Shown piece after piece: positions 1 through 36,315 of a DNA stretch of 37,089 nt. The notes beneath the pieces are model-generated. The model saw nothing but the letters and a program-made list of their open reading frames with translations. It made no database searches and was not told the DNA's origin. Positions within the stretch are counted from its first letter, which is position 1, and every line of letters starts with the position of its first letter. Location: positions 1 to 37,089 of the IMG/VR virus record IMGVR_UViG_3300044701_000250. One strand, written 5' to 3'. This DNA comes from a virus. A program made the translations under genes and the position numbers.

Positions 1-127
1 TGATTTTTGGAGTGCTAGCCGCCAATGTAAGCAAATTCGTCCCATCAAAAGTCAGCGCACTCCCACTCGTCGCCACCTTGCTGCCGTTCAGATACAACAC
101 GCCGTTGGCCGTGCCGCCGGAGAGGGT
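1..127. repeat. 127-bp exact direct repeat, copy A (window start)
   Basis: Bases 1-127 match 35877-36003 base for base; the first difference is at 128 (t) against 36004 (c). Copy A begins exactly at the window start. Both copies lie in fibre coding sequence in the same frame and encode the [17 protein letters not shown] region. A length of exactly 127 equals a k-mer size commonly used by de Bruijn assemblers, so this is probably a graph junction rather than a biological duplication. Confidence 0.9.
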
Positions 128-631
128 TGGGTTGTTTGAGAACGTCGTGGCGCTGTTGAGCGTAATACCGCTAGTGGCGGTAATTCTCAGATTTTTGTTG
201 CTCGTAATGTACGACTCAGCACCAACCGAAAGCGCGCTGTGTCCAACTGCAAACGATCCCGTGCCGCTTGAAGTCGTGATGCTCAGTTCGGATGTGTCTG
301 TCGATGACAGCGTGGCGTTTGGGTTGCTGCTGTTTCCAGCCACCGTCAGTGTCGCGCCGTTGTAGCCAAGCGACGAACTGGTAGTCAGGTTCTTGCTACC
401 GTTCAGATAGGCCACCGCATTGGCGGTGCCCGCGCTGTTGGTCAGCGTGCCGCCAACCGTGAGCGTCTTGCCAGTGCCAACATTGAGACCAACAGACGTG
501 CCGCTGCCAGCGGCAGCAAACACACCGTCAACCATATCAAGGTTGGTGTTAAGTTTTCCGCCCCAGGTATCTGCAGACGCGCCGACTTCCGGCTTCGTCA
601 GTCCAAGGTTGGTGGTTGTCGTATCAGCCAT
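1..631 (-). CDS. Tail fibre N-terminal part (cut by window start)
   Basis: The ATG is at 631-629, just after a GAGG Shine-Dalgarno that overlaps the stop of the upstream gene. The frame stays open to base 1, giving 210 residues with no stop. The N-terminus ([20 protein letters not shown], then a [12 protein letters not shown] stretch) is the short virion-attachment motif seen at the start of many podophage and siphophage fibre proteins. After it come Ser/Thr/Gly-rich beta-strand repeats typical of a fibre shaft. The last 42 codons are encoded by the 127-bp repeat shared with 35877-36003, in the same frame. Joining there continues into the S74 chaperone end of the gene at 34339 and predicts a 722-residue fibre. 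Likely role: host receptor binding. The fibre call is confident; the fusion is inferred. Confidence 0.85.
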
Positions 632-642
632 TTTTCGTTACC

Positions 643-1308
643 TCAAGCGGCTTGCAAATAAGCCGGATGTGTTTTTTCCGTCCACGTCTTCGCAGTATCT
701 GTCTGCGCCGTCCACGTCTCTGCGGTATCCGGTATCACGCTCCACGCAACACTCGTATCCGCTACCGTCGCCCAGCTCTCTGCTGTATCCGCCTCCGGCG
801 TCCAACTCTCCGCCGTATCCGGTATCACCTCCCACTTGAGGCGACCCGACACGACCACCACCGATACCGCGGATATCGCACAAGATGCGAGTTGCACCCG
901 GTTTGCCGTGGCGGTCAGAGTGGCCGCTGCGTTGATTGCAGCGCCGCTCTCGTATACCGCCAGTGCGGTGGCTGTCAGACTGCTGGTGGCGGCTAGGGCA
1001 GCGGAGCCGCGCTGTATACGCTCCGCCGAGGCGGTTAGCGTCGCAGCAGCAGACAGTGCTGCAGCTGCGTTCTGTACCCTGTTGGCGGTCGCTGTGAGCG
1101 TTGCCGCCGCGTTGAGAGTCGCAGCCCCCTGCTGCACCCTCACCGCACTTGCCGTGACCGTAGCCGCGGCGCTCAACGTAGCCGCACCCTGCTGGATGCG
1201 GATACCCGATGCCACCAAGGTGGCGGCAGCGGTTAGTGTGGCTGACCCCTCTTTAGGGTCTATGCCATAGTTACCACGCCCATATAAGCCGCTGCCGTAA
1301 CCGGCCAC
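643..1308 (-). CDS. Repeat-built tail-associated protein (AATLTA repeats plus DTAESW repeats)
   Basis: 221 residues from a GTG start at 1308, three bases after the stop of the upstream gene. After a glycine/tyrosine-rich head (GYGSGLYGRGNYG), the protein is six to seven copies of a 19-20 residue unit of the type GAATLxAAATLTAxAxRVQ (residues about 20-150). A second array of short units follows, with pattern xxxDTAExW, five copies at residues about 162-212. No enzyme motif is visible. Alternating small and beta-branched residues suggest a beta-structured fibre-like protein. It sits between tail genes and the fibre, so an accessory fibre or adhesin role is likely, but this is inference. The repeats also exist at DNA level with a period near 57 bp, so copy number could change by recombination. 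Confidence 0.75.
   Translation of the reverse strand: MAGYGSGLYGRGNYGIDPKEGSATLTAAATLVASGIRIQQGAATLSAAATVTASAVRVQQGAATLNAAATLTATANRVQNAAAALSAAATLTASAERIQRGSAALAATSSLTATALAVYESGAAINAAATLTATANRVQLASCAISAVSVVVVSGRLKWEVIPDTAESWTPEADTAESWATVADTSVAWSVIPDTAETWTAQTDTAKTWTEKTHPAYLQAA
846..1262 (-). repeat. Tandem coding repeat, about 57-60 bp units
   Basis: The AATLTA-type protein repeats are carried on degenerate tandem DNA units built around a gcggc...gttagcgt core. Units are diverged from each other, so this is an old internal duplication within one gene, not a CRISPR array or satellite. Confidence 0.7.
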
Positions 1309-1311
1309 GGA

Positions 1312-1695
1312 TTAGGCCAACGTAATGTCAAGATCGCCAGCAGGGACGCGGAACACGTCACCGGAGGCAATCGTCTTGCTCGAGGTCAGGTTGCCGTACG
1401 CCAAGAGGTTGCCGCTGGTCAGGTTGTCAAAGATGCCAACCGCAACCACCGTGCCCCACGTCGATCCGGCAGTCGGGAACTCCACAGCAGAGGTATTGCT
1501 CGCCGTGTCGTTCACTACCGTAAAGGCAATAGTCTGGCGCGCATAAGACGTGCCAGAGACTTCAGTGCCGCCACCAGTGTCATCCGGCGCGACGGTATAC
1601 AGCGCCAGATAAAGCGTAGTAGGCGCCGTGTAAGCCGTCGCACCGAAGACGTGCAGCAGCACCTTGTTCTCGAGATAGTTTGAAAAAGCACTCAC
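1312..1695 (-). CDS. Conserved phage tail-associated protein (127 aa)
   Basis: 127 residues. The GTG start at 1695 overlaps the TGA of the adaptor gene as GTGA, a coupling junction. The N-terminus (NYLENKVLLHVFGATAYT, then PTTLYLALYT) and the following GGTEVSG..YARQ pattern belong to a family frequent in tail regions of phages and prophages, usually labelled tail fibre-like. The rest is predicted beta-rich, ending in a VPAGDLDITLA strand. There are no catalytic motifs. Its position after the head-tail adaptor and before fibre genes supports a tail structural role; the exact role is unknown. Confidence 0.7.
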   Translation of the reverse strand: MSAFSNYLENKVLLHVFGATAYTAPTTLYLALYTVAPDDTGGGTEVSGTSYARQTIAFTVVNDTASNTSAVEFPTAGSTWGTVVAVGIFDNLTSGNLLAYGNLTSSKTIASGDVFRVPAGDLDITLA

Positions 1696-2324
1696 GGGAT
1701 AACCCTCGTCGGTTTGACGCCAATGGCAAGACGGCCACCGCTAAATGAGGCACGCTCGTCTTGAATCAGCATGTCGTTGATCGCGCTCTGGTACTGGCTC
1801 GCCCACACCGCCATGCGCTCATCGTCGCGCAGGTACGGAGCGGCTTGCAGCAGTGAGCCGTAAAGGTACACATCAGGATGACGCGCCAGCACCCAGTTGG
1901 ACGTGTTGGCGTCTGACAACTTGGCCAGCGTCGCTACATACGTCAACTCGGCGGCATAGCCAGTATCTGGCGCAGGGAGCACTTCAATCTGATTGCCAAT
2001 CAGCGCGAAGTATCTTGGAGTGCCGGTGGTGCGATAGATGTACTTCTTGGCATCGAGTTCATCTTCGCTCAAGAACACCAGCGGCTGCACCGGAGCGGTG
2101 GCCGTCAACACCAAAGACTTGGCCGCCAGAAAGTCTGACGGCAGCGCAGAAAACGGCGTGTCGAGCGTAGCGCTCGAGCGCTTGACCATCTTCTGCGTCG
2201 GCAGCTTGCGCTCAATTTGCGCCTCTGCCAACGAGATGAAGTCAGGGATAACCGATGTCAGGTCATCGCGGTTTAGCCAATCCGCGAGACTAGACTTCAA
2301 TTCGCTGTATGTGGTTAGTGCCAC
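1692..2324 (-). CDS. Head-to-tail adaptor protein (SU10/P22 gp4-like)
   Basis: 210 residues from a GTG start at 2324, inside the last 35 bases of the glycosyltransferase gene. The helical N-terminus (TYSELKSSLADWLNRDDL, then a SLAEAQIERKL stretch) and the later PSDFLAAKSL and VYLYGSLLQAAPYLRDD segments are characteristic of podophage portal-bound adaptor proteins, which sit under the portal and connect head to tail. It lies downstream of the capsid gene, as usual. Family assignment is from motif memory, not a search. Confidence 0.78.
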   Translation of the reverse strand: MALTTYSELKSSLADWLNRDDLTSVIPDFISLAEAQIERKLPTQKMVKRSSATLDTPFSALPSDFLAAKSLVLTATAPVQPLVFLSEDELDAKKYIYRTTGTPRYFALIGNQIEVLPAPDTGYAAELTYVATLAKLSDANTSNWVLARHPDVYLYGSLLQAAPYLRDDERMAVWASQYQSAINDMLIQDERASFSGGRLAIGVKPTRVIP

Positions 2325-2964
2325 CTTCTACCTGCTCCTTCATCGCCCACGCACCTTCGTGTGAATATTCAAAGGTGCCGATGTGCTTGACGTGCTGCGA
2401 AAGGTCGTGATCCAGAAGTACCTCATACCCGGCCTCTTTGGCCTTGCGGCAGAAGAACACGTCTTCCCCGATGTAGTGGTTGCCAATCGTCGAGTACGGG
2501 ATCGCAAACCAAGGTGCTTCGATATTCTCAAAAACCTCGCGCTTCACCATCATCACGCCCATGCCGACATAATCCACCGGCTCCAAGCCTTGCGACTCTG
2601 GCCCTGTGTATACGCGGTCAATCTTGCCGCCGCCGTCCATCATCGCTACCGGCTTGACCGGCATACGCCTGGTGGCATAGTTAGCGGCCACGATGGGCTT
2701 GTCGCGCAGAATCAGGTGCCCGATAGTTTCCTTCGGGAACCGCATGTCTGAATCAAGCCAGAGAAGATAATCCGCCTTCTCCTCGAGTGCTTGACGCGCA
2801 AGCTCCATTCTCTGAGAGGCGATCAGAGTTCCGTGCGATGTGTAAAGCATCACGCGGTCGTCTGTTGTCGCGGTATAAAACGACATCGCTCGCGCTAGGT
2901 CATAGGCAAACGAGGTCATCACCGTGTCCCTTGCTGGGACTAAAATGGCGACCGAGCGACTCAT
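2290..2964 (-). CDS. GT-A fold glycosyltransferase (GT2-like)
   Basis: 224 residues. The ATG at 2964 overlaps the preceding stop as ATGA. The N-terminus (SVAILVPARDTVMTSFAYDL) is the nucleotide-sugar-binding start of GT-A enzymes. A DSD metal-binding triad lies at residues about 71-73 (WLDSDMRFP). A GEDVFFCRKAKEAG segment near residue 167 matches the ED catalytic-base region of GT2-type enzymes, and conserved histidines follow (DHDLSQHVKHIG). Substrate and acceptor cannot be read from sequence. Lying inside the head/tail cluster, it may glycosylate a virion protein or modify the host surface. It is the second glycosyltransferase in the genome, far from the one at 13614. Confidence 0.82.
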   Translation of the reverse strand: MSRSVAILVPARDTVMTSFAYDLARAMSFYTATTDDRVMLYTSHGTLIASQRMELARQALEEKADYLLWLDSDMRFPKETIGHLILRDKPIVAANYATRRMPVKPVAMMDGGGKIDRVYTGPESQGLEPVDYVGMGVMMVKREVFENIEAPWFAIPYSTIGNHYIGEDVFFCRKAKEAGYEVLLDHDLSQHVKHIGTFEYSHEGAWAMKEQVEGGTNHIQRIEV

Positions 2965-3281
2965 ACGCGCCCCGGTCGTGTTCTAAACAATCTGTTGTCA
3001 GGATCGTTGAGCCAGCGCTTCATCGCTGCCGGGTCATCAATGATCCCCTGATTCTTGAGGCGGTAAAACAGTTGCATCGGAATTGAGGCAACTTTCGACC
3101 ATTCACCCCATTTAGCGCGTTCGTCTACGCTATTAAAACTCGCCTTATTCTTCTCAATCAAGTCGCCGACTTTAAAGACCGTCTCAATCGTGGCCTCATC
3201 TTTGTCGGCATCATAGTGCCACCATTTGGTCGTACCCGTTGCCGGGTCATAGTCAAAGAGGCGCTTACCTGATGAATTCAT
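2961..3281 (-). CDS. Hypothetical phage protein (106 aa)
   Basis: 106 residues from an ATG at 3281 with a GAGG Shine-Dalgarno seven bases upstream. It is rich in charged and aromatic residues, with DYDPATGTTKWWHYDADKDE near the start and MKRWLNDPDNRLFRTRPGRV at the end. No known catalytic motif, signal or membrane segment. It is the first gene after the capsid and is separated from it by a strong RNA hairpin. Such small proteins are common between capsid and adaptor in podophages. Function not recognised. Confidence 0.7.
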   Translation of the reverse strand: MNSSGKRLFDYDPATGTTKWWHYDADKDEATIETVFKVGDLIEKNKASFNSVDERAKWGEWSKVASIPMQLFYRLKNQGIIDDPAAMKRWLNDPDNRLFRTRPGRV

Positions 3282-3297
3282 GCAATCCTCAACTCAA

Positions 3298-3323
3298 GGG
3301 CGACGGCACCATTGCCGCCGCCC
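3298..3323 (-). promoter_or_regulatory. Strong intercistronic hairpin after the capsid gene
   Basis: In the minus-strand transcript an 11-bp stem (3298-3308 with 3313-3323, one G-U wobble at 3303/3318) closes on a four-base AUGG loop. It starts about 18 bases past the capsid stop and ends 17 bases before the next ATG. No U-tract follows, so it is not a classic intrinsic terminator. Likely it stabilises the 3' end of capsid mRNA or reduces read-through into downstream genes. Confidence 0.65.
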
Positions 3324-3341
3324 CGAGTTTATACGACTTTA

Positions 3342-4322
3342 TTAGGTCGTGGTGAGGTCGGCAGCCAAGCCGTGCGCGGCTTCGGTGTTAACCTTCAAGC
3401 CCCACTCAACGAGGATCATGCGCTTCTCGGCGTCGCCGGTCTTCGCAAGTTCCACCGTCTGGAAGGGGCGCAGGAACGAAACGCCAGCGTACTCAGGATC
3501 AAGCACGAAGGCATCACGCTCACGCTGGAAGCGGTTCGGGACAACCGACACGTTGCCGAAGTCCGAAACATACACGTCAGCAGCGCCGATGATGACACCC
3601 GGCTTGTTGCCAACAACTTCCTTGCGGATCTCAGCGATACCGGCAAAGCCAGACACGCGCTGCTTGTTGACAGGGCCTACCATCAGGATCTTCGGCGTAC
3701 CGCCCGAAGTCCACACCTTCTGGATCACGCTCTTGAGGATCGACTCCGTGAACGTGCGAAGGTTGGCGTCCGTGGCGTCCGTGCGGGTCGCATTCGGCTG
3801 CGTGGTGTACGACGGATCAGCACCGCCCGTGCCCTTGTCCGTGTTGGTCTTCAAGAAGGCCAACAACGAACCCGTCTTGCGAAGCGCCGTGCTGGTGCCA
3901 GCAGAGCCGCCATCGGCCTTCTGGTTGGTCAGCATGATGCTTTCCATGTCGCGCTTCAACTCAGCCGAGCGCTTGGCGAGCTGGTAGGCCAACTCAGAGC
4001 GACGGCCAGCCTTGTCCACCGACTCGAGCGTACCCGACAGGATCAGCGTCTTGCGGCTGACCTGCGTGTAGTTGCCGATACGGGTGGTGGGCGAGGTCGA
4101 ATCAAACGACGAAACATCGTCACCTTCGATCTGCGCGTTCGTGGTCGAAGCCGCAGCGAGCGAGTCCGTCTGCCACTCAAAATAAGTGTTCTTGACGTTC
4201 TCACGGCCGATGTTCGACATGAACGGAGTCTCTTCCGGCGAGATGTTGTAGATAACATTCGACAGGGACTCACGAATACCTTTTGCGTTAAAGGTATCAA
4301 ACGTATTGCCGGTCTGTGACAT
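3342..4322 (-). CDS. Major capsid protein (HK97 fold, SU10-like)
   Basis: 326 residues, ATG at 4322. The N-terminal FDTFNAKGIRESLSNVIYNI and SPEETPFMSNIGR segments, then NYTQVSRKTLILSGTLESVD, are hallmarks of the SU10-like major head protein family (DUF5309 type), which forms the icosahedral shell. The C-terminal part reads as the P-domain and A-domain of an HK97 fold. There is no cleavable prodomain. It follows the scaffold gene with a 13-base gap, the standard scaffold-capsid order, and is followed by a hairpin. Codon use is regular, as expected for the most highly expressed phage gene. The start is set by the ATG and family length. Confidence 0.9.
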   Translation of the reverse strand: MSQTGNTFDTFNAKGIRESLSNVIYNISPEETPFMSNIGRENVKNTYFEWQTDSLAAASTTNAQIEGDDVSSFDSTSPTTRIGNYTQVSRKTLILSGTLESVDKAGRRSELAYQLAKRSAELKRDMESIMLTNQKADGGSAGTSTALRKTGSLLAFLKTNTDKGTGGADPSYTTQPNATRTDATDANLRTFTESILKSVIQKVWTSGGTPKILMVGPVNKQRVSGFAGIAEIRKEVVGNKPGVIIGAADVYVSDFGNVSVVPNRFQRERDAFVLDPEYAGVSFLRPFQTVELAKTGDAEKRMILVEWGLKVNTEAAHGLAADLTTT

Positions 4323-4335
4323 GACTAAAAATTCC

Positions 4336-5313
4336 TCAATCTAAAAATTGCTCAAACACAGCAGCCGCATCACGCGTGCTGCCACTATTGGCGAGTCTAG
4401 AAAGAGCGGTCTTAGACGCAACGACTTTGGACGACTGCGGCGTAGATGCGGCGCCAGCCCTCATCGGCTTGGCCTTCTGCATGATCTTCGGGCGCATCTG
4501 GTCACGCTTGCTCATCAGCTCGTCGTATAGCATCGCTTTACGAAGAGCAAGAACGGCTCGAGCGTCGTATACGTCCGAAATCTCTTCGACACTAAAGCCG
4601 AGTTTTCCGGTTGCGTATTCAACGATCTTCGCCTTCTCGGCACGAGCCTTTTCGACATCGCGCCATTCTGGCAAGGATTCCATCAACTTGGCACGTTCGA
4701 CCTCTAGGGTCTGCTCTGCCTGCGCCTGTTCTTCCTGCTGCTGTCTCTGCACCAGAGCGGACTTCTGGGCTTGCACCCACGCGGTCTGCTCCTGCCTGGT
4801 ACGCTGCAATTCGCGCTGTCTCACCCACTCAACCGGGTTCTCTTGATAAAGTCGATCCCAGTCTAGCTCGGGCGGTTGCAGATTGCGAAGCTGCGCATCA
4901 AGCGCTTCCAAAGTCTGTGCGTATCGCTGCCGCTCTTGCCGCGCAACCTCTAGCTCCACTTCGGCCTGTTTTCTGGCCTCCGCAATCGCTTGAGTCTTGC
5001 GCGTATAGTCTGCGGTGCGTGAGTAGCCCTTCAGCAACTCATCAAGCGGAACCTCAATTTCTTCACCGTCAACTTTGACGCGGAAGGTTTGGCTCGCTTG
5101 AGGTGCCTCATCGGCGTCCTCTTCGCTTTCGGTGACTTCCTCGCTATCGACCTCCGACTCGCCATCAGATGCCTCTAGCGCCTCTTCACCCTCATCCACT
5201 ACTTCAGTTTCAAGCTGCTCGTTTTCGCCTTCATCAGCGGCGAGCATCTGCTCAAAAGCATCCTGTGTGGACTGTATTTTTCCGGGGGGTGTACCCGTGC
5301 CGGTTTCACTCAT
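4336..5313 (-). CDS. Capsid scaffolding protein
   Basis: 325 residues from the ATG at 5313 (MSETGTGTPPGK). A TTG five codons upstream would add MHNRV but lacks a better ribosome site. The protein has an acidic N-terminal region (residues about 25-70, dense in E and D), then a VKVDGEEIEVPLDELLKGYS motif typical of podophage scaffolds. A long coiled coil rich in Q, E, R and A follows (residues about 95-230), and a basic C-terminus. Scaffolds of this class chaperone capsid assembly inside the prohead. It lies directly upstream of the capsid gene. Confidence 0.88.
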   Translation of the reverse strand: MSETGTGTPPGKIQSTQDAFEQMLAADEGENEQLETEVVDEGEEALEASDGESEVDSEEVTESEEDADEAPQASQTFRVKVDGEEIEVPLDELLKGYSRTADYTRKTQAIAEARKQAEVELEVARQERQRYAQTLEALDAQLRNLQPPELDWDRLYQENPVEWVRQRELQRTRQEQTAWVQAQKSALVQRQQQEEQAQAEQTLEVERAKLMESLPEWRDVEKARAEKAKIVEYATGKLGFSVEEISDVYDARAVLALRKAMLYDELMSKRDQMRPKIMQKAKPMRAGAASTPQSSKVVASKTALSRLANSGSTRDAAAVFEQFLD

Positions 5314-5340
5314 AACTCTATTGTGCAAGATTCAAGCGGA

Positions 5341-10372: not shown

Positions 10373-12565
10373 TTACATTGCCTGCGGCTGAATCGGCGGC
10401 ATCTGAGGCGCAGGCCCAATCTCAGGGATCACAGGCTGCTGCACGCTCGGCGTCGCAGTGCGCGGCGCGCTCATCATGGCGCGGATTGTTTCCACATCCA
10501 CTGCCGTGCCGCTCTTCAACTGGATCTCATACGCGCGCAGCATCAAGTCCGCTTCCTGCTTGTCTCGAGCGCGGTCATCCTCGAGAAGCATGGCCTGACG
10601 CTTCAGCTCCAACTCTGCCTGTTTGTTCTGGATGTCAGCCATGATCTTCTGCTGCTCAACTTGCGCCAAGATCATCGCCGGATCTGGCGGCGGCGGAGGC
10701 GGAGGCGGCGGAGGCGGCTGGTTCTGCGGATTCAAGAAGAACTCATCCGGGTTCTTAAAGCCGGACAGCTCAGCAAGACGCGCAAGCGTGTTGCGGTACT
10801 GCTGCGGCGTCACCATCGGATTCTGCGGCCCCATCATCTGCAGGACTTGCTCCTGCTTCTGGGATATTGAGGTCAGCACGGCAATCTTTTGCTCGTCCGT
10901 GCCGCCACCGAGTGCCACGTCAATCTCCACGTCCATCTCAGCATCCCAAGAGCGCGGATCAATCGGCACCCACTGATTGCGAAGGCGCACCACCCGCGGG
11001 CGATCTTGGTTTTCAACGACCAGCTTGAGAATGCCTTTGAACAAGGCGCGCATCCCGGTTTCTGCGAAGATCCGGGCTATCAGCTCAAGATGTTGCTGGG
11101 CAGCGCTGACGGTCGCGGCAACTGCCGCGCGGGTGGTGCTCTGTAGCGCATCGGCCTGCAAGCCCATAGCGGCCTTGCTCATCCCGGTGCGCGTCTCGCG
11201 TACTTCATCCAAGTACCCGAGCATTGGAAATGCGGCCTGTCCCACAAACGGGACAGCAAACGGCTGAACCATGCCAGGCTGGCGCATACGAATCACGCCA
11301 CCGACTTCGGTGTTCAGCACGTCATCCATGTTGGCCTGACCCTCAACGACACCCACTCGAGGGTGAATCGCAAGCGAGAGCGAGTCCAGCATGTTACGCA
11401 TGACGGCAGACTTGATGCGCTGCAGGTCTGCGGTCATGTCAAAGATGGAAAGCCCGATCAAAGCGTGTGGCTCTGGATCTGGGCAGAAGAGCGCAAACGG
11501 GCGATGCGAGCAAGGCTCGTTCATCACCATCTTGTATGACGGGCCGATGGTGCAGACTTTGCGCAACTCAGCGATGCCGTCGCGGTCATAATCCACGCGC
11601 ATGTAGGCTTCGACATACAGCACGCGCTTATCGTCTTGCGTTCCACCCGGGCCGTAAGACTCTGCGTAAGGATTACGCGCGATGTACTCATCGTTTGAGT
11701 CCAACTCATACGCACCCATTTGAGCGCGCACTTCTTCCTCGTCGTAACCCAACGCCACCAAGTCAGAGACGCGCATCATGCGGCGGTGCGCCACCACCAC
11801 CGAATCCTCAACCGAGCGCGCACGGCGGTCGATCAAAAACTCTTCGGGCGGCACTGCCTCAACTTGTACGCGGCCAGACTTATACTCGCGCTTAAGTTCG
11901 AGGTTGTAAATCTGCGGCACCGGCAACGGCATGCCCGTCATCGGGTCAACCACCGGCTGCCCGGTCATCGGGTCAACGGGCGGCTGGTACGAGGGGTCAT
12001 CCATTGACTCAATGGCACTTCCCACCACGTCACGCTCGGAGAGCAGGACGGTCAGGGCGGACTCATCAAGGCCGGTGTAGTGCTCGGTCTTAACCTCGAC
12101 CTTCTCTTCCCAGTAATACTTGGCCACGCCAAGCGCACCGCGTAGCGCATCCTTGAAAACGCTGTGGCAAAGCAAAAACCCGTTGTTGTCGTTCTGGAAA
12201 ATCCAGTTGACGTAATCGGTCGCCTGCTCGGCGCTGGCAATGTCTTCCGCCCCACGCGGCACAAACTGCACCACGCGGTTGGAACCGAAAAACACCTTCA
12301 TCAACGACGGCATGATGCCGTTGATGGTGTCGCGCACATCGGTGCTGACTACCTGCGAGCGCCCCTCTTCCTCGTTACCAAACGGTTCGCCGCGGTAATA
12401 CTGGATGGCACGGGCACGAACCGGCGACAACTCAGCATCAATAAACGATACGGCGTCGGTCAGCTCTCCGGCAACAAGTGCCTCAAGTTCCGCATCGTCC
12501 ATAGGCTCAAAGCCGCCCATGGCGATCTCGGTTTGCTCAATGATGGAACCGTCTTGGTTATACAT
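10373..12565 (-). CDS. Portal protein
   Basis: 730 residues, ATG at 12565. It forms the dodecameric DNA channel at the capsid vertex. Family features include an N-terminal helical region with VRARAIQYYRGEPFGNEEEG and SQVVSTDVRDTINGIMPSLM (residues about 48-95), and a long central portal core. A C-terminal helical Gln-rich barrel region follows. Length matches P22/podophage-type portals. Residues about 615-627 are a run of twelve prolines encoded by GGC/GGA-type repeats on the plus strand, a likely slippage site and flexible linker. It lies downstream of the glycan cassette rather than directly after TerL. Confidence 0.9.
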   Translation of the reverse strand: MYNQDGSIIEQTEIAMGGFEPMDDAELEALVAGELTDAVSFIDAELSPVRARAIQYYRGEPFGNEEEGRSQVVSTDVRDTINGIMPSLMKVFFGSNRVVQFVPRGAEDIASAEQATDYVNWIFQNDNNGFLLCHSVFKDALRGALGVAKYYWEEKVEVKTEHYTGLDESALTVLLSERDVVGSAIESMDDPSYQPPVDPMTGQPVVDPMTGMPLPVPQIYNLELKREYKSGRVQVEAVPPEEFLIDRRARSVEDSVVVAHRRMMRVSDLVALGYDEEEVRAQMGAYELDSNDEYIARNPYAESYGPGGTQDDKRVLYVEAYMRVDYDRDGIAELRKVCTIGPSYKMVMNEPCSHRPFALFCPDPEPHALIGLSIFDMTADLQRIKSAVMRNMLDSLSLAIHPRVGVVEGQANMDDVLNTEVGGVIRMRQPGMVQPFAVPFVGQAAFPMLGYLDEVRETRTGMSKAAMGLQADALQSTTRAAVAATVSAAQQHLELIARIFAETGMRALFKGILKLVVENQDRPRVVRLRNQWVPIDPRSWDAEMDVEIDVALGGGTDEQKIAVLTSISQKQEQVLQMMGPQNPMVTPQQYRNTLARLAELSGFKNPDEFFLNPQNQPPPPPPPPPPPDPAMILAQVEQQKIMADIQNKQAELELKRQAMLLEDDRARDKQEADLMLRAYEIQLKSGTAVDVETIRAMMSAPRTATPSVQQPVIPEIGPAPQMPPIQPQAM

Positions 12566-14222: not shown

Positions 14223-14779
14223 AAGCCCCTCACAAAGAACAACAACGTCGGCCGCCCCCAACTAGACCCCTGCCGCTTGTCCGTCTCTCGAAACATGCAG
14301 GAGGTGATCCAGTCACACTTGAAGCCGTTTTCGCCAAAGCGCTCGATCCAATAATCCGTCGTTTGCTCGTTGACGTGGTGGTGGCCGCCCTGCCCCGGCA
14401 CGGCGTGGCACATCAGCACATACTTGCAGCGGTGCAGCGTCTTAAACCAATTCTGCTCGCACTTCTGGTCTACATGCTCCACAAACTCGGTGCAGATGCC
14501 AAGGTCATACTCGCGCTCTGGATCGTATGCGCCTTTCTCGTAATCGTTCGCCACGAGAATCTCTTTGACCGGACTTTCGGCAAGCGGGATCGGGTGGCCT
14601 TCCACGCCGCGCGCATCAAAGCCTAGGTCGTGCCACCATTTGATGTTCCAGCCCATGCCAGCGCCCACATCAATCACCGACTTGATGCCGTAGTGCAGCG
14701 CAATATATCCCCAAATGTCAGGCATCCACGTCGCGCGGTCGCCCTCTGGAATATAGCCGCCGAGATGGTCGATGCTCAT
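14219..14779 (-). CDS. Class I SAM-dependent methyltransferase
   Basis: 186 residues from the ATG at 14779, which overlaps the TerL stop as ATGA. Motif I (VIDVGAGMGWNIKWW, residues about 34-48) is the SAM-binding glycine loop, followed by an acidic residue after the second strand (ARGVEGHP). A motif IV-like YDLGICTEFVEHVD lies near residues 90-103. A histidine cluster (GQGGHHHVNE) follows, as in small glycan or FkbM-like methyltransferases. The substrate is not readable; coupling to GT25 suggests methylation of a sugar. DNA methylation is less likely because no NPPY/DPPY motif is visible. Confidence 0.8.
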   Translation of the reverse strand: MSIDHLGGYIPEGDRATWMPDIWGYIALHYGIKSVIDVGAGMGWNIKWWHDLGFDARGVEGHPIPLAESPVKEILVANDYEKGAYDPEREYDLGICTEFVEHVDQKCEQNWFKTLHRCKYVLMCHAVPGQGGHHHVNEQTTDYWIERFGENGFKCDWITSCMFRETDKRQGSSWGRPTLLFFVRGL

Positions 14780-16173
14780 ACGATTCCCCTCACCTGCCGC
14801 TTGACCGGCTTGTTCCAAACGTTGGTGTATCCACTGCTCGCCGTGGCGGCGTCCGCTGCAAAGGTCAGCACGAAGGCGTCAGCCACGTCAGGCGACACTA
14901 ACCCTCGCCGCTTCATGTCATCCTTGCTCTCGAGTTTCAACTTGCCGTTGCTCATAAACGAGTAACGCGGCGAAGATAGTTCATTGACCAGTCGCTCGTC
15001 ACGCGGCAGTTTGCAGTCGCGCGCCTCTAACCACGCCTTCGCCTTGCTCCACAACTCAGCGCGCAGGTTGGCGTACTGCGCCTTAAGCGCTGGCGACTCA
15101 CCGACGTTGATGCCGCGGGCGGGAAGTTTCAACTCGCGTAATCGATCGACTACACCTGCGCCAAGGCCGATGCTGTCCACCAAAATCTCGACCGGGCGAT
15201 TCTTGAAGTCGCAGCTCTCCCACTCGTGCAGCACGGCGCCGGTGAGCGACATCAGGTCAAGGTTCTTCCACGTCTTGATCGTCTCTGGCACCACGTTGGC
15301 CTGGCGCTTACAGAGCGCAGAGGAGTCGGTTCCAAAGCGCGCCACGTCCAAGCCCCAGAGGATGGGGGCGCCGGGGTTCTGTACCACGTCACGGTCGATG
15401 GCCGCCTGCGCCAGTTCCAGACTGATCAACGTATCGTCATCGGCCAGCGGGAACTCACCGAGCACGCGTACCCGGAAGGCGTTAGACCCCTCGCCGTACC
15501 GAGCGCGCATTTCTGCAACGTACTCGTCCGACACGCGCGGCGAGTCTAGGCAAGAGACGTGCAAGTTTTTCCACTCGCCGGAGAGGCGGTGGAAAGTGTC
15601 GTAAAAGTACCCCTGGGTGCGGGTGGGGTTGCCGAGTAGCAGCGTGGTGGCATTGTGGCCGGACATACTGCCGCCCGCGGACTCAAAAACCGCCTCCGAT
15701 ACGCCGGGGGCTTCGTCCACCACCAGCAGCACCCACTCTGCGTGGATACCCTGCAGGGCGTCGGGCTGCTCGGCGCGGCTGGTGCGGGCGGAGATGAATG
15801 CCTCTTCCGGGCTGGCTTTTAATTCAATACGGTCGGACTTGATCTCGAGCAAGTCCCCTATGGCGGGGGGTAGCAGCTTGGCCCAGCGGCGGCATTCTCC
15901 GAAAAGCGCGTCGAACAACTGGCTGGCTGTGGGGGCGGTGACGACCACCTTGACGGGTACGCGGGTGAGCATGAACCAGAGCATGGCCCACGAGGCGGCA
16001 GTGGACTTTCCCGTTCCGTGGCCCGATCTAACGGATACCTTGCGCTCATTCGCAGCCAGAAGCCCTAGGAGCTGCTTTTGCCATGGGTCTGGTGTGACCC
16101 CTAGCACCTCTGTCACAAACGCCACAGGATCGCTGTGGTAGCGTTTTACGAAGTCCAGATATGGGTTCTGCAT
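14776..16173 (-). CDS. terL: Terminase large subunit
   Basis: 465 residues, ATG at 16173. This is the ATP-driven DNA packaging motor and nuclease. Walker A is GHGTGKS at residues 51-57. Walker B is LLVVDEAPG at about 149-157, with D153/E154. The NPTRT coupling motif is near 182-186. The RNase H-like nuclease uses D276 (WGLDVARFG), D333 (EILVDSIGLG) and an acidic pair near D429/D432 (SPDVADAF). Length is typical. It is separated from TerS by 275 non-coding bases, unusual for phages where the two often overlap, and is coupled downstream to the methyltransferase. No inteins or frameshifts. Confidence 0.93.
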   Translation of the reverse strand: MQNPYLDFVKRYHSDPVAFVTEVLGVTPDPWQKQLLGLLAANERKVSVRSGHGTGKSTAASWAMLWFMLTRVPVKVVVTAPTASQLFDALFGECRRWAKLLPPAIGDLLEIKSDRIELKASPEEAFISARTSRAEQPDALQGIHAEWVLLVVDEAPGVSEAVFESAGGSMSGHNATTLLLGNPTRTQGYFYDTFHRLSGEWKNLHVSCLDSPRVSDEYVAEMRARYGEGSNAFRVRVLGEFPLADDDTLISLELAQAAIDRDVVQNPGAPILWGLDVARFGTDSSALCKRQANVVPETIKTWKNLDLMSLTGAVLHEWESCDFKNRPVEILVDSIGLGAGVVDRLRELKLPARGINVGESPALKAQYANLRAELWSKAKAWLEARDCKLPRDERLVNELSSPRYSFMSNGKLKLESKDDMKRRGLVSPDVADAFVLTFAADAATASSGYTNVWNKPVKRQVRGIV

Positions 16174-28081: not shown

Positions 28082-28088
28082 CTTTATC

Positions 28089-29512: not shown

Positions 29513-31773
29513 CAGCGTTTCCCCTTCTTGCTTACCTTCTTGTCCAACTCCTTGACCGCTTCGGTAAGAAGCCCGATCACCTGCGGCACGCCAACTTGGC
29601 GCATACCGTCACGACGGCGAGAGACGGCTTCTGGCATGACCTTTTCAACGTCCTGCGCTGAAACACTCATGTCTTTCTTGCCGCCTTCGTCTTCGCCATC
29701 TTCTGAGCCGTATCCGTCTTCCCACTCAAACTCAATGCCCTTGAGACGGTTTACCTTATCAAGCGGGTTCTTGATCTTTTTGGCGTTCTTCTTCATGTCC
29801 ATGTCAGATCCGAAGACCTGTTGTGCCATGTTGAAGTAACTTGGCGTACTCGTCACCTTACCAGTCGTTGACTGGTTAATCGGACTCGCCGCAATCGCAC
29901 CCTGCCGGATCGCCAACTGCTGCAGCGGGTAGTTCTGCTGGCGCATGAACTCCTGATACTGCCGGTCGAGATACTGCTGCATGAGCCCCTGCTGCCCCTG
30001 CCCCAGTCCAAGCTGCGCCTGAGCCGCGCCATAGCGGTTCTGCAGCGCCTGCTGGCCAAACTGCCCCAACTGCCCGGCAGCGCCCATGCGGAACTGCGCC
30101 GCCTGCTGCCCTGCGCCTTGGTTGGCCAGAGCCGCCTGCATCGCCTGCTGCGCGTTGAACTGCTGCGCGGTCATTCCCATTTCTTGGGCGCGCTGCCGTG
30201 CCTGCTGGTTGGCAAGCGCCATCTGGTTGGCCTGCTGTGCGTTGAACTGCTGCTGCGCCTGCGTCATGCCCTGCGCCTGCAGCCCAGCGGCCTGGTTCAA
30301 ACGTGCCGCATCCATGGCGGCCTGCACATTGAACTGACCAGCCTGCAAGCCCATTTGCTGGCCAGTCTGACCAGCCTGCTGGTTGGCAAGGGCAGCACGC
30401 AGGGCGGCCTCTTGGTTGGCCTGCCCAGCGGTCAGCCCTAAGCGCTGCGCCTCAAGCGCGGCCTGCTGGTTGGACTGCGAGGCAGTCAAACCCAACTGCT
30501 GCGCCTGCTGCTGCGCGGCTTGGTTAGCCAGCGCCGCACGCATCTGCTGCTCGACGTTGAACTGGCCAGTCTGCGTGCCAAGTTGCTGCGTCTGCAACTG
30601 TGCCGCTTGGTTGGCTCGAGCAGCCTCAAGTGCCGCCTGCTGGTTTGCCTGCTGCGCGGTCAGACCCATCTGCTGGGCCTGCTGTCCAGCGGCTTGGTTA
30701 GCCAGTTGAGCACGCATCGCCGTCTCGACATTGGTCTGGCCAGCCGTCAGCCCGAGTTGCTGCAATCGCAGGTCACGCTCTTGGTTGCTAATCTGGCCAG
30801 CCTGCGCCAACTGCATGACGTTCTGCGCGGCCTGCTGGTTAGCCAGAGACGCCTGTTGCTCACGGCCAACGTCCGCCTCACGCAACTGCGCGGCCTGCTG
30901 GAAGCCCTGCGCGCGCTGCTCGGCAATAAAGCGGTTACGCTCACGCGCAGCCTCGCCAGCGGCGATACCTTCCTGCACGGCTTGGCGTGATCCGCCAAAC
31001 GCTCGAGCGGCAGTAGCCTGAGCGCCAATTTGTTGGCGCCGTGCAGCCTCCGAGCGGTCGATGTCAGACAGCCCGGCCTCAATGACCTGCTGCTGGTACG
31101 GGTTCTGGTAAGCCGCTAAGTCACGCCCCAAGAATGACGCACCCTGCACCGAAGGTGCAGCACCCGGCCCAGCGACATCACGCGCAGAGAACTGCGTGCC
31201 AAGCCGCTCGCCCTGTACGTTCTGCGGTGCAAACTGGCTGGCAATCTGCTGCGCGTTAATGTCACGCACGCCAGCCGGGCCAGCGGCAGCACCGACCGAC
31301 ACGTTCGGGGCGGTAAACTGCGAGGCAATCGGAGCGGCACCAAACTGTGATGCAATCTGCTGCGCAGATACGCGCTCAGGCGCAAACTGCGTGCCGACTT
31401 GGCCAGCCATCACGCGCTCAACTGTGGTGCCAGGCGCTACACGCTCGGCTTGTGACAGAGGAGCCTCAAACTGGGTTTGAACCTGACCGCCCTGCACGCG
31501 CTCCGGCTGGAAGCCAAGGTCTCGCTGCAACTGCTGAGAGGCGAGCTCCAACTCTGGAACATAGCCGCCCTGCTGCGCGATGGCGCGAGTCATGGCTTCG
31601 CCGCGCATGTAGTCCTGCGTGAACGGCGCCGTTAGCAAGCCTTGATAAGGCGTGAACGGCAGAGCGGCCAACTGATTGGCCATCTCAATGTTCTGCAGGA
31701 CGTTTTGATAAACCGCCGGGTCTATCTGCGTCGAGCTGGTTTCTTTCTTGCTGGACTTAAAAAGGTTACTCAT
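29512..31773 (-). CDS. Gln/Ala-repeat protein with C-terminal S74-type chaperone
   Basis: 753 residues. The ATG at 31773 overlaps the GNAT-like gene stop as ATGA. Residues about 90-225 hold QFAPERV/IASQF-type short repeats. Residues about 300-575 are a long helical repeat region rich in Q, A and L with a recurrent ALANQAAxQQAQQLGLTA unit of roughly 30 residues. The C-terminus is an S74 intramolecular chaperone: GSDMDMKKNAKKI gives S656 and K661 in the S-x4-K dyad spacing, followed by SVSAQDVEKVMPEAVSRR and VPQVIGLLTEAVKELDKKV. It would cleave itself before S656 after trimerising. Fused to a helical rod rather than a beta fibre, which is unusual. Likely a tail or ejection rod. Confidence 0.8.
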   Translation of the reverse strand: MSNLFKSSKKETSSTQIDPAVYQNVLQNIEMANQLAALPFTPYQGLLTAPFTQDYMRGEAMTRAIAQQGGYVPELELASQQLQRDLGFQPERVQGGQVQTQFEAPLSQAERVAPGTTVERVMAGQVGTQFAPERVSAQQIASQFGAAPIASQFTAPNVSVGAAAGPAGVRDINAQQIASQFAPQNVQGERLGTQFSARDVAGPGAAPSVQGASFLGRDLAAYQNPYQQQVIEAGLSDIDRSEAARRQQIGAQATAARAFGGSRQAVQEGIAAGEAARERNRFIAEQRAQGFQQAAQLREADVGREQQASLANQQAAQNVMQLAQAGQISNQERDLRLQQLGLTAGQTNVETAMRAQLANQAAGQQAQQMGLTAQQANQQAALEAARANQAAQLQTQQLGTQTGQFNVEQQMRAALANQAAQQQAQQLGLTASQSNQQAALEAQRLGLTAGQANQEAALRAALANQQAGQTGQQMGLQAGQFNVQAAMDAARLNQAAGLQAQGMTQAQQQFNAQQANQMALANQQARQRAQEMGMTAQQFNAQQAMQAALANQGAGQQAAQFRMGAAGQLGQFGQQALQNRYGAAQAQLGLGQGQQGLMQQYLDRQYQEFMRQQNYPLQQLAIRQGAIAASPINQSTTGKVTSTPSYFNMAQQVFGSDMDMKKNAKKIKNPLDKVNRLKGIEFEWEDGYGSEDGEDEGGKKDMSVSAQDVEKVMPEAVSRRRDGMRQVGVPQVIGLLTEAVKELDKKVSKKGKR
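30050..30850 (-). repeat. Tandem Gln/Ala coding repeats
   Basis: The DNA of the rod region carries degenerate units of about 90 bp with recurring ctgctggttggc, gcctgctg and caactgctgcgc elements, matching the ALANQAA...LGLTA protein unit. It is prone to length change. Confidence 0.7.
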
Positions 31774-32141
31774 AGTTTCTTCTCGAGCACCACCGCGGTG
31801 CGTCTGTAGCCCTCAAGCGCCCTCTGCCAACCGGGGCGGCCCATAATCAACATCGTGTCGCAGCCGATGCTGCGCGCCCAATCCTCAACGAGTGGGCGGA
31901 TGTTTCCGTTTATTTCGTTCAGATCCCCTGCGCCAAGGATCACCGTGAGTTGCTTAATGCGCGGGAATATGTCGATGGTTGTGAGTACACAGGAGTTTTC
32001 AGCCGCCCAGAATTGATACTCACCGCGCGCAATGCCCTCGAGGACATCGTTGTAGTTCAACTGGCCATAGTTCTCGGCCAACGCGCGCTCAATCAATTCT
32101 CGAAACGGCTTAATAAACTCAAACCCCTCTGCCTCGCTCAT
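31770..32141 (-). CDS. GNAT-like protein (123 aa)
   Basis: 123 residues, ATG at 32141, four-base overlaps on both sides. FIKPFRELIERALAENYGQL forms the first helices. The strands FWAAENSCVLTTIDIFPRIK and LTVILGAGDLNEINGNIRPL follow, then VEDWARSIGCDTMLIMGRPG and WQRALEGYRRTAVVLEKKL. This matches the acetyltransferase-like family placed beside tail genes in podophages, sometimes equated with T7 gp13. The acetyl-CoA loop is not obvious, so it may be a structural relative. Confidence 0.7.
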   Translation of the reverse strand: MSEAEGFEFIKPFRELIERALAENYGQLNYNDVLEGIARGEYQFWAAENSCVLTTIDIFPRIKQLTVILGAGDLNEINGNIRPLVEDWARSIGCDTMLIMGRPGWQRALEGYRRTAVVLEKKL

Positions 32142-33616
32142 CGCTCACCGCCTGCCACGGCATCAAGGCGCATGGTTCCAACTCGCCAGTCTGTGGCGGG
32201 CGATGCTCCTGTCACTCGCATCTCAACCTGACGGCCACTGAAGCGCACCGGCGTGTATGGGCTGTCAATCGTGTAAGACTTGACCACCTCGGAGCCTAGT
32301 GGCGTGAAACGTGTCTTGAACTGCACGCCAACAGACCCCTCTGTTTTCTCATCGGCAATCAACTGCCGAGCCACCATGATGCGATCCCCACCGCCAAACT
32401 CTATCGGGCCAGTCTGCGCATACGGCGTGGCGCCGTCGTAAGCCACGCCAACCTCATGCTCGTAGATGTACCCGTCAGTGGATACCAAGAGCGGATAGTT
32501 GAACACGCCACGATCTGTGCCAGCGGTGCGCGCAAGGCTACCGATAGTCCAATGCCCCTCACGGTAATTGTACGCAACATAGGAGTCCACTTCAGTATTT
32601 GAAGCGCTGGGGTAATACCACCAGATCTCCCCATACTGGTTGTTGGCTACCGCGTACACCTTGGACTTCTGCTGCTGTGACAGGTTGTTGGTCACATAAT
32701 CGAGCACGTCACACTTGATGGGGCGAACAAAGCCGTCGTACATGAAGAAGCCAGAAGGACTCCACCAGTACGCCACCGACTCCACCGCCGCCACCGCCTG
32801 CGCGCTGATTACGCCGCAGCCGGTTGCAATACGCTCAAAGCCGTAAACAAACGGCGGCCCCTGATATTGCGCGGTGTGTACGTCCACGTCCGTGAAAATC
32901 AGGTTCACGCCGCGCAGACGCTTGCCAGCCACGATGGAGCCAAGCGTCTCAAGCTCAATGTCGCCCGCTTGGTTCGTGACCGCTGGCGTCCAGAGCGTGT
33001 TGTTTTCTTGATCGCACCAGGCAACCTTGCGGGCATTGCCGCCAGCGCCAAGTGCGAACACAAACCGCTCTGCTGTGACCAGCACCGCCTTGTTGTCAAT
33101 CGGTGCGTTGGTCAGCGCCACGGCGTCATTGTTCGTGTCCAAGTCCCACTCAAGGATCTTGCCGTCAGCGTTGGAGCAGGCGAGCAGGTACTCGCCCCAG
33201 TTGTCCATGCTCCACGTCGTGGCTGGCGTTACCGTGCCGGTATCTGGCCGCGGCGTGCCATACGAAAACAAGCCATAAGGGCCGCCGCCATAACCAAGGT
33301 TGAGCACGGCATCTGCAACTCCAGCCGTGAAGCCTGCAGTCGGTGTGATGTCCGTCAGCGTTCCCGCCTCGTTCATCGCATATAACTTGCTGTGCGTACC
33401 GGCGCCAATCCAGCGCACGTTTCCGTTGGTGCGCCACGCAATAAAGCCGCGGCACATTCCGGTCATCTGGCTGTTGGAGCGTTTGCGCCAACCGCCGACC
33501 GGGCGCATGGTGCCTTCATACCAGCGCACGAGGCTGGCATCACGCCAGCGACTCTTGCTCTGGTAGTCAGTACCGTTGCGATATACGCCCGGTTGAATGT
33601 TAATGGGTACGAGCAT
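32138..33616 (-). CDS. Tail nozzle/stabilisation protein (P22 gp10-like)
   Basis: 492 residues, ATG at 33616 with a GTAGGAG site. The start (MLVPINIQPGVYRNGTDYQS, then KSRWRDASLVRWYEGTMRPV and GGWRKR) is the well-known beginning of podophage gp10-type tail proteins. The body is a series of beta-propeller-like blades (GFIAWRTNGNVRWIGAGTHS, YWWSPSGFFMYDGFVRPIKC). It plugs or extends the portal-adaptor channel. Length fits the family. Its presence is the strongest single sign that the particle is short-tailed. Confidence 0.85.
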   Translation of the reverse strand: MLVPINIQPGVYRNGTDYQSKSRWRDASLVRWYEGTMRPVGGWRKRSNSQMTGMCRGFIAWRTNGNVRWIGAGTHSKLYAMNEAGTLTDITPTAGFTAGVADAVLNLGYGGGPYGLFSYGTPRPDTGTVTPATTWSMDNWGEYLLACSNADGKILEWDLDTNNDAVALTNAPIDNKAVLVTAERFVFALGAGGNARKVAWCDQENNTLWTPAVTNQAGDIELETLGSIVAGKRLRGVNLIFTDVDVHTAQYQGPPFVYGFERIATGCGVISAQAVAAVESVAYWWSPSGFFMYDGFVRPIKCDVLDYVTNNLSQQQKSKVYAVANNQYGEIWWYYPSASNTEVDSYVAYNYREGHWTIGSLARTAGTDRGVFNYPLLVSTDGYIYEHEVGVAYDGATPYAQTGPIEFGGGDRIMVARQLIADEKTEGSVGVQFKTRFTPLGSEVVKSYTIDSPYTPVRFSGRQVEMRVTGASPATDWRVGTMRLDAVAGGER

Positions 33617-33622
33617 CCGCTC

Positions 33623-33850
33623 CTACTCCTTCGGGATAAACCAACCTTTCAACATGCCAGTCAGAACGGCAAGAGCGGCGGCGAGGCCAGCGAGCCATTT
33701 GACGAAGGCGACCAGCGTTTCGGCAGTGGCCCAAGCGTTGGCGAGTTTTTTAAGATCGCCTTTCACTTCGGACATGTCGGCCTGCAGCGCCTCCATCTCT
33801 TTCCTCAATAGTGCGATTTCCACCGCATCAGCCCGCTCTTGATCTGACAT
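33623..33850 (-). CDS. Coiled-coil plus membrane helix protein (75 aa)
   Basis: 75 residues, ATG at 33850. The N-terminal coiled coil (VEIALLRKEMEALQADMSEV, then KGDLKKLANAW) is followed by a C-terminal membrane helix (WLAGLAAALAVLTGMLKGWF). This topology resembles XhlA-type lysis accessory proteins. It lies between tail genes, away from the endolysin, so either a lysis accessory or a tail-assembly membrane protein is possible. Confidence 0.68.
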   Translation of the reverse strand: MSDQERADAVEIALLRKEMEALQADMSEVKGDLKKLANAWATAETLVAFVKWLAGLAAALAVLTGMLKGWFIPKE

Positions 33851-33853
33851 GGC

Positions 33854-34012
33854 TCACTCCGGCTTGTCTTCTTTCTTCGGAAGATGCGGCTCTACTTGTC
33901 CGAGCAACTTCTGCCAAAGCGGGAAAGCACCTTGCGCAGTTGGCAAGCTGCCGATCAAGTTGGTAATGGCCACGGCTTCCTCGAGAGACAACTTCAACTC
34001 AATCTCTTCCAT
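33854..34012 (-). CDS. Small protein (52 aa)
   Basis: The ATG at 34012 overlaps the previous TAA (TAATG). It reads MEEIELKLSLEEAVAITNLI, then GSLPTAQGAFPLWQKLLGQV and a basic/acidic tail. It resembles small helical phage proteins of the tail region that begin with E-L-K-L-S-L-E/D-E patterns. Function unknown. Confidence 0.68.
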   Translation of the reverse strand: MEEIELKLSLEEAVAITNLIGSLPTAQGAFPLWQKLLGQVEPHLPKKEDKPE

Positions 34013-34335
34013 TACGCCACCCACGGAAGTTGCGGCGAAACGATCGGCGGATTCTTGGCGTTCGCAATCTGCTGCGCCACCGCCGCCTCTGTCGCGTCCT
34101 TGTCCACGCCGTTCGCCCAAATCCATCCGAGGACGGTATCCAGAGTCAGCGATGAATACGGGATAAACGACTCACCTTCCACGACGGGAAGCGAGCAAGT
34201 GCTGTAGACGTTGCCGGAATAGTCGCCGTCTGCGCCGGAGCAAGCCCAGTGGCAAACGATAACGTAATCTTGGTGTCCATCTACGTTCGGCAAGCAATCC
34301 ATTTTTGAGACTTGCCAGTTGTATACGATGCTCAT
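34012..34335 (-). CDS. DUF7936-like tail-region protein (107 aa)
   Basis: 107 residues, ATG at 34335, three bases after the fibre stop. YNWQVSKMDCLPNVDGHQDY and VIVCHWACSGADGDYSGNVY match a small beta-sandwich family (which I associate with DUF7936) often encoded just after tail fibre genes; the C-terminal helix (DATEAAVAQQIANAKNPP) is also typical. It may help fibre assembly or be a tail tip component; no experiment known to me fixes the role. Confidence 0.75.
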   Translation of the reverse strand: MSIVYNWQVSKMDCLPNVDGHQDYVIVCHWACSGADGDYSGNVYSTCSLPVVEGESFIPYSSLTLDTVLGWIWANGVDKDATEAAVAQQIANAKNPPIVSPQLPWVA

Positions 34336-34338
34336 TTA

Positions 34339-36315
34339 TTAGGCTCCTTTAAGTGCGGATACTTCCGCTTCCAGTTTCTCAATACGCGCCATGGCTTCTT
34401 GCAGGGCTTTGATGGCGGCAAACGTAATGTCTTTGGTGTAAACCGTCTTTAGCGGTTCTTCGCCTTCTGGCGTATTTCCAAAGCCATCTGCATCTACCCA
34501 TACCGGCTCAACAGATTCAACCTGCTGCGCGATGACACCGACGTTCACATCATCGTGCGTCTGGTCGTTGTACTTATAGGTGACAATTTCCAATGCGCCG
34601 ATCTTGTCCCACATGGACGCAGCGGGAGCAATGTCTTTCTTTGTGCGAGCGTCTGACAGGTCTACGTTGTTGGACTGGTAGTTTGCCAAGCCGCCATTGG
34701 AGCGGATAACAGCGCGAGTTGCGGCATTATCACCGCAGTTCAAAAACCAACGAGTAGCATCATTTGGTGCGGCGGCACTAAACGTAATTGTCGGGCCATA
34801 CGGATTGCTCGCAGCAGAGTTAGTAATAATTACTGCTTCAGCATTACTGACGTTTGAATATAACTCATGATAAGTGCCTGTGCTTCCAGCATACGTCCCA
34901 GTATTGCTGGCTTTGAAGAAACCCCCCGCCGTGATGCGTGCGCGTTCGCCAAGTCCGCTAGTCCCGCGTGTAGAGAACGACAATGCTGCATAATCGTTTG
35001 TGTGATCTGTGTATTGCGCGCCAAATGCAGCGGCAGCAGCACCGCCATCTGAATCTGTCCAAAAAATCTGCGCCCAGTTGTTGTTGGTTGTGTTTGTATT
35101 TGTTAAGTACGCAACAACGGCACCAGCGTTAAACTGCGAAGTTTCAGCATCGGCAAAAGACACTTGGAGCGGGCCGTCTGGCGAACTCGTCCCGATGCCG
35201 AGGTTGCCGGAGGCATCTAACGTGACCTTTGCCGTTCCCTCAATACCTAACTCTACAATGCTGCCCGCTATCATCAACGGCTGATAAGAGGCATTTAACG
35301 TATTATCAACGCCTTGGAAAGTAGTGCGCGTTGAGTCATGTATGACACGAACGCCTTTTGTTGATCCTGAAAGACCTAATGAATAGCCAGATGTATTTAC
35401 CGCATGCACCTTCGCGCTAGGCGAACTAGTCCCGATGCCGAGGTTGCCGGAGGAGTCTATTCTGGCTTTTTCTGTCGTGCCTGTATAAAACAAAAGGCTG
35501 CCAGTGTTTACGCCCGACCGTAGTGCTGCAACCGATGCGGCAGTATCCGATCCGTCATTTGATTTAAAGTTTAAGAATCCGTAATCGTTAGAAACTCTTG
35601 CTCTGATATTGATGCCGTTTGAGCCAGAGTTAGAAACAACGTCAAGCGGTACTGCCGGACTGCTCGTGCCGATGCCTAACCCGGTGCTGGTGAGGCGGGC
35701 TTGTTCGGAGCCGTTAAGTTCAAACGCTTGGTAATAACCAGACGACCCAGACTTACCGGCAACAAAACGCATTCCACCCGTTGAGGCATTCAAAGTGACT
35801 TGCCCGTAGGAGGACGCTATAGACGGGAAATAAAAATCCAGACCAAAGTCGTTAGCAAGCCCAGAATCGCTTACTCTGATTTTTGGAGTGCTAGCCGCCA
35901 ATGTAAGCAAATTCGTCCCATCAAAAGTCAGCGCACTCCCACTCGTCGCCACCTTGCTGCCGTTCAGATACAACACGCCGTTGGCCGTGCCGCCGGAGAG
36001 GGTCAATGCACTGCTGATCGTGGCAGAAGTCGAAGTCAGGTTCGTAATCGTTGCTGATGCAAACGTAGCATTCGTCAGCGACAAGCTGCTGATGGTAAGA
36101 CTACCGACCCGAGCAACCGTAAACGATGCATCCGCGCAAGTCAGGCTGGAGGGGCTTGTGCCTATTTCGATGATGCCGCTGCTGCTGTTGATAGTAAACA
36201 ACCGCTTATCTGCCGTGTTAACGGCCAGTTCTGCACCACCTGCTGCATTCGTCAGGTTAGCCGTTGCCGGAACTGCACCCGGAGTGTCACTCTTTTTCGT
36301 CAGAATAGTAGGCAT
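34339..36315 (-). CDS. Tail fibre with C-terminal S74 chaperone
   Basis: 658 residues as read in this window. The ATG at 36315 overlaps the upstream stop as TAATG. The N-terminus (MPTILTKKSDTPGAVPATAN, then AAGGAELAVNTADKRL) is a common fibre start. Residues about 60-100 share decapeptide repeats with the upstream gene. The shaft (105-540) has several GIGTSSP-containing repeats. The S74 chaperone is residues 554-658: S554 and K559 (LSDARTKKDIAP), VGVIAQQVESV, and a terminal coiled coil (ALQEAMARIEKLEAEV). It should autocleave before S554. An alternative N-terminus encoded by 631-1 joins within the 127-bp repeat (codons at 36003-35877). Confidence 0.9.
   Translation of the reverse strand: MPTILTKKSDTPGAVPATANLTNAAGGAELAVNTADKRLFTINSSSGIIEIGTSPSSLTCADASFTVARVGSLTISSLSLTNATFASATITNLTSTSATISSALTLSGGTANGVLYLNGSKVATSGSALTFDGTNLLTLAASTPKIRVSDSGLANDFGLDFYFPSIASSYGQVTLNASTGGMRFVAGKSGSSGYYQAFELNGSEQARLTSTGLGIGTSSPAVPLDVVSNSGSNGINIRARVSNDYGFLNFKSNDGSDTAASVAALRSGVNTGSLLFYTGTTEKARIDSSGNLGIGTSSPSAKVHAVNTSGYSLGLSGSTKGVRVIHDSTRTTFQGVDNTLNASYQPLMIAGSIVELGIEGTAKVTLDASGNLGIGTSSPDGPLQVSFADAETSQFNAGAVVAYLTNTNTTNNNWAQIFWTDSDGGAAAAAFGAQYTDHTNDYAALSFSTRGTSGLGERARITAGGFFKASNTGTYAGSTGTYHELYSNVSNAEAVIITNSAASNPYGPTITFSAAAPNDATRWFLNCGDNAATRAVIRSNGGLANYQSNNVDLSDARTKKDIAPAASMWDKIGALEIVTYKYNDQTHDDVNVGVIAQQVESVEPVWVDADGFGNTPEGEEPLKTVYTKDITFAAIKALQEAMARIEKLEAEVSALKGA
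35877..36003. repeat. 127-bp exact direct repeat, copy B (internal)
   Basis: Identical to bases 1-127. It lies inside the fibre gene, 1,086 bases from the window end, so this is not a simple terminal overlap. It marks the branch between two fibre N-terminal versions. Confidence 0.9.

Follow-up and report, generated by a model that had tools for sequence, protein, structure and literature searches.

A sigma-shaped contig that very probably links a complete 35,876-bp podophage genome to a tail-fibre fragment of another lineage

Described relatives and comparable contigs

Judged by the portal protein, the nearest known phages are the uncultured Manatee Spring podophages MW202496 and MW202879, Phage C72C1 and Sinorhizobium phage phiM5, all with homologous portals at 45–51% identity. 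MW202496 resembles the phage described here in its uninterrupted late block of broadly similar order and in its fibre ending in an S74 domain, but its nozzle-like gene precedes the fibre. Caulobacter phages RW, KcrB, RLK and GB2A are kin of the lineage from which the last part of the sequence derives; unlike that part, their records gave no match to the fibre N-terminus found there (B-type below), and no match to it was obtained among known phages.

Circular contigs whose ends overlap by k bases are known from metaSPAdes assembly with k = 127. The window, i.e. the whole stretch of 37,089 nucleotides analysed (IMG/VR record IMGVR_UViG_3300044701_000250), holds a repeat of that same length, and three of its relatives (G008, G013 and G016) show an overlap of 127 bp between their two ends. 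In the window, in contrast with the usual overlap circle, the second copy is internal, and the assembly path would have run on into an edge belonging to another phage. That distantly related phages trade parts of their fibres is also already known (for example PMC10579305). As in the cases given there, which include Alteromonas schitovirus A5 and other families, a near-identical module is shared in spite of unrelated or distant capsid, portal and nozzle proteins. Here, in contrast, what is shared lies within the gene, a ~95-bp linker together with as much as ~350 bp, and has been seen in uncultured contigs only. The window is very probably a sigma-shaped contig, with a loop of 35,876 bp that represents the complete genome of an uncultured podophage and a tail coming from a lineage of ~56 kb.

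The internal repeat and the 35,876-bp circle

Comparison of the window with itself reproduced the exact identity of bases 1–127 and 35877–36003 reported in the first-pass annotation (0 mismatches, the second copy ending 1,086 bp before the window does). Beyond the repeat the two copies diverge, with a T at base 128 and a C at base 36004. The second-longest exact direct repeat in the window measures only 25 bp (35189/35429) and in the repeat search no inverted repeat reached 20 bp, which excludes a chance origin for a repeat of 127 bp. The same annotation had pointed to an in-frame fusion of the fibre gene at the repeat. The fused open reading frame is indeed 2,169 nt long (722 aa plus stop) with no internal stops. 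However, the uncut frame 36315–34339 is likewise open and in frame (658 aa), since the 127 bp are coding in either context. The in-frame fusion was therefore dropped as evidence for the join and, as the frame cannot discriminate between the joined and the uncut arrangement, the decision must come from other sequences.

Such sequences were obtained by querying IMG/VR with part of the repeat, which yielded three other contigs. The contig L004 (IMGVR_UViG_3300047510_000659, 9,093 bp) corresponds to window positions 30524–36003 followed by 128–3740, with zero differences, and L016 (3300047564_000131, 17,614 bp) starts at window position 35859, crosses the join and ends at 17595, at 99.97% identity. 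Thus, in other assemblies the sequence runs from 35876 into 1, and the join is borne out. These two contigs and the window are separate assemblies, possibly from one project and possibly of the same population. The terminus of L016 at 35859 is placed 18 bp past the repeat, within the same fibre module, hinting that the graph of a different sample branched a second time at this place. A strain ~97% identical to the window in its adaptor, gp80 and nozzle proteins (L241) carries on a single contig the adaptor, the gp80-family gene, g643, the A-type fibre N-terminus, the DUF7936 gene and the nozzle, and the A-type N-terminus and the nozzle are also co-located on each of L223, L224 and L225. In no contig examined was the side branch joined to the fibre tip of the window; its exact start was seen only in L007 and L008, both of which continue into a different tip.

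The length of the circle is in agreement with its family. Nine related long contigs, with portal proteins 84–89% identical to that of the window, measure 34.7–36.4 kb, and five relatives present exact terminal repeats, of 127 bp in G008, G013 and G016 (circles of 36,115, 35,086 and 35,716 bp), 107 bp in G014 (36,276 bp) and 81 bp in G011 (36,313 bp). The 35,876 bp proposed at first for the complete genome sit inside this range. The terminal repeats fall in different genes in different relatives; they therefore reflect where a graph circle was cut and do not mark a conserved end of the genome. These differing cut points demonstrate only the circularity of the graph, and the same graph circle would arise from a linear genome whose terminal repeats are fixed. 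The circular or circularly permuted form named in the first-pass annotation is thus one candidate for the physical state, next to cohesive or fixed ends. Assembly in the JGI style uses SPAdes with k up to 127 (PMC12697132, PMC7171226), the JGI series being quoted as -k 33,55,77,99,127 for metaSPAdes. The earlier suggestion that 127 is a common assembler value was thus sound, and it is very probably the k of this assembly, an identification drawn from the length and from the repeats of the relatives rather than from the window's own parameters. In one further relative (G012, 36,389 bp; L190/L191) the ends overlap imperfectly, with 73 bp exact followed by 510 bp at 90.4% and an offset of ~141 bp, probably because two variants of the strain meet where the circle closes; this is another non-standard circle.

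The features of the window are collected in Table 1. The late genes, read from the terminase to the endolysin, are all on the minus strand and become continuous only once the sequence is joined at the repeat, as had been anticipated; related contigs keep the same gene order across the fibre. Among the head genes there are glycosyltransferase-like genes (Glyco_transf_25; weak Anp1) and weak methyltransferase-like ones (13614–14261, 14219–14818 and 2290–2964). The DUF7936 gene was found just downstream of the fibre in both lineages and at 22 of 31 loci sharing the tip, often within tens of bases, and it may travel with the fibre tip as a fibre assembly partner. A pattern-based scan of the GTDB collection for portal relatives gave none, and hence no prophage or host clue.

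Table 1. Positions of the repeat copies, the genes of the circle and the side-branch segments in the window
Feature	Positions	Strand	Basis or remark
Proposed shared 127-bp vertex, first copy; contig start; codes fibre linker and next residues	1..127	-	exact match
Proposed shared 127-bp vertex, second copy	35877..36003	-	exact match; L004 and L016 run on into 128
Tail fibre, N-terminal part (A-type anchor)	1..631	-	present in 11 of 11 relatives read whole
GP4 fibre I protein gp80 family	1312..1695	-	PF23140
Head-tail adaptor	1692..2324	-	SU10_adaptor, PF24175
Major capsid protein	3342..4322	-	phrog_1328
Scaffold	4336-5328	-
Portal	10373..12565	-	phrog_1216
Terminase large subunit	14776..16173	-	phrog_2
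Endolysin	25093-25566	-
Large phrog_5880 protein	26159-28138	-
Second S74-ended gene, 753 aa, same late module	29512-31773	-
Tail nozzle-like virion protein	32138..33616	-	phrog_3287
DUF7936 gene, directly after the fibre	34012..34335	-	PF25590, E 8.6e-26
Tail fibre, distal part (tip), continuing 631-1 over the join; ends in Peptidase_S74 intramolecular chaperone	34339..35876	-	PF13884, E 8.9e-13
Fibre linker, ~95 bp (copy at 33-127)	35909..36003	-	84-96% DNA identity in most matching second-lineage contigs
Foreign fibre N-terminus, B-type, begins MPTILTKKSDTPGAVP	36004..36315	-	side branch
Foreign upstream fibre gene, 3' part	36315..37088	-	phrog_16267; gene pair and spacing as in G025

Origin of the last 1,086 bp

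The B-type N-terminus that opens the side branch is related to sequences in at least 80 further IMG/VR contigs, several of them of 55–58 kb. The A-type anchor was absent from all 80 B-type loci and the B-type from all 30 loci with the A-type anchor; likewise, none of the 11 members of the 36-kb family read whole carries the B-type. In four B-type contigs of 55–58 kb that were read whole, the adaptor and nozzle are only 24–29% identical to those of the window, and tblastn found no match in these four to the window capsid or portal. Taken separately, the figures for the lineage are 27–29% for the adaptor and 25–26% for the nozzle. No relative of the window capsid was found among 15 contigs of this second lineage. 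A closer counterpart is provided by G025 (~56 kb), where a fibre gene (41358–42320) is followed with the same tight spacing by a B-type gene starting at 42323, at 74% and 85% identity to the window, respectively; the 74%-identical gene is the counterpart of 36315–37088. Along its whole length the portal of G025 shares 57% identity with its counterpart in Caulobacter phage RW. At the junction side the sequences nearest to the side branch are those of L007 and L008 (82% over 442 bp), with differing fibre tips, and exact patterns for the start-codon region of the side branch returned no source contig. The separate N-termini, the lineage in which the B-type occurs and the conserved gene pair identify the side branch as a fibre cassette that belongs to another lineage of podophages. 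Judging from these comparisons, positions 36004–37089, already taken for a side branch in the first-pass annotation, hold the 3' part of one fibre gene and the beginning of its successor, both of the ~56-kb lineage, and not an allele of the window phage. The 3-mer composition was also considered as a sign of foreignness and discarded; that of the tail sits at the edge of the range of the circle, with 1 of 70 segments as extreme, but repetitive fibre sequence is skewed anyway.

The shape of the contig is best explained by co-occurring phages that share the fibre linker and the sequence following it over a stretch no shorter than one complete 127-mer. A de Bruijn graph built with k = 127 would hold such a 127-mer as a single vertex, and the assembler path would start at this vertex, return to it after one lap of the phage genome and exit on the edge of the other phage. 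Within this scheme the join, the fit of the genome size and the foreign lineage of the tail are observed, whereas the presence of the second phage in the sample of the window, the sharing of the vertex owing to exchange of fibre modules between the lineages and the exact path of the assembler are inferred.

Alternatively, the side branch would be another allele of the fibre within the same phage population, with the B-type replacing the A-type N-terminus and the remaining genome unchanged. The continuous B-to-tip frame (34339–36315) is open, as this alternative requires, and near-identical strains do switch fibre at the linker, G006 being 98.4% identical up to that point and unrelated beyond. 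However, the switches seen within the family change the tip and keep the N-terminus, which is normally the part of a tail fibre that attaches to the virion, and the distribution of the two N-termini among the 11 relatives shows no such replacement. Moreover, the B-type comes paired with another fibre gene, and the adaptor and nozzle proteins of its lineage are very different, so that an allele is improbable.

Taking the record literally, the window would be all or part of a correctly assembled linear genome that carries two fibre N-termini and a genuine 127-bp direct repeat. L004 already contradicts this arrangement, and both L004 and L016 join 36003 to 128; furthermore, the repeat has the length of the assembler k, the same length recurs at unrelated places in the relatives, and the record would exceed the genome size of the family and leave the late genes split. 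This reading has next to no likelihood. Scarcely any weight can be given either to a programmed recombination site by which a single genome would alternate between two fibre N-termini, in spite of the direct repeats that flank the fibre region and the two in-frame fusions. The left edge of the repeat is merely the start of the contig and its length equals k, the A and B segments belong to different phage lineages, and the genes examined included no recombinase adjoining the fibre. With the sigma-shaped contig as the preferred explanation, the public record is best treated as a circle of 35,876 bp, and its final 1,086 bp are to be annotated neither as genes of the window phage nor as a second fibre of it.

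The fibre linker and its mosaics

At the DNA level the fused fibre gene resembles the second lineage over short stretches only, of which the linker is the best shared. The linker occupies positions 505–599 of the fused gene, and on the coding strand the 127-bp repeat begins exactly at its edge. Of 80 second-lineage loci, 18 match it, and the same 80 loci gave no DNA matches to the fused fibre over its first 420 nt or at ~600–960. A longer shared segment was seen in L006, which has 350 bp in common with the window (35654–36003) at 97.4% identity, including an exact block of 152 bp that is longer than k. Outside these 350 bp L006 is 73% identical or unrelated to the window, and its neighbouring genes resemble those of L008, from the second lineage. 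When a stretch of at least 127 bp is common to co-occurring phages, a branch of exactly this kind is expected. In G006 the similarity to the window extends over 3 kb upstream and, within the fibre, is lost immediately after the linker; the fibre of G007 breaks at the same place. On the basis of these alignments the linker module is a real edge of fibre mosaics.

The case is ordinary in kind, an assembly artefact on top of ordinary tail-fibre gene swapping. More broadly, shared fibre modules yield hybrid contigs right at the receptor-binding genes, where inference of host range from metagenome contigs can err. The sole biological lead is the recurrence of the linker at the edges of fibre mosaics in two lineages. 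It is conceivable, though slightly less than an even prospect, that this coding linker of ~95 bp is a standing exchange joint through which phages of 36 kb and ~56 kb trade tips while keeping their own virion anchors. A literature search with the linker motif string found no paper. The motif GIGTSSP is repeated in the fused fibre (codons ~277, 356 and 436), and the DNA around these positions also matches fibres of the second lineage, with 13–14 loci near codons 341–380 and 421–460; these sites may constitute a further set of linkers.
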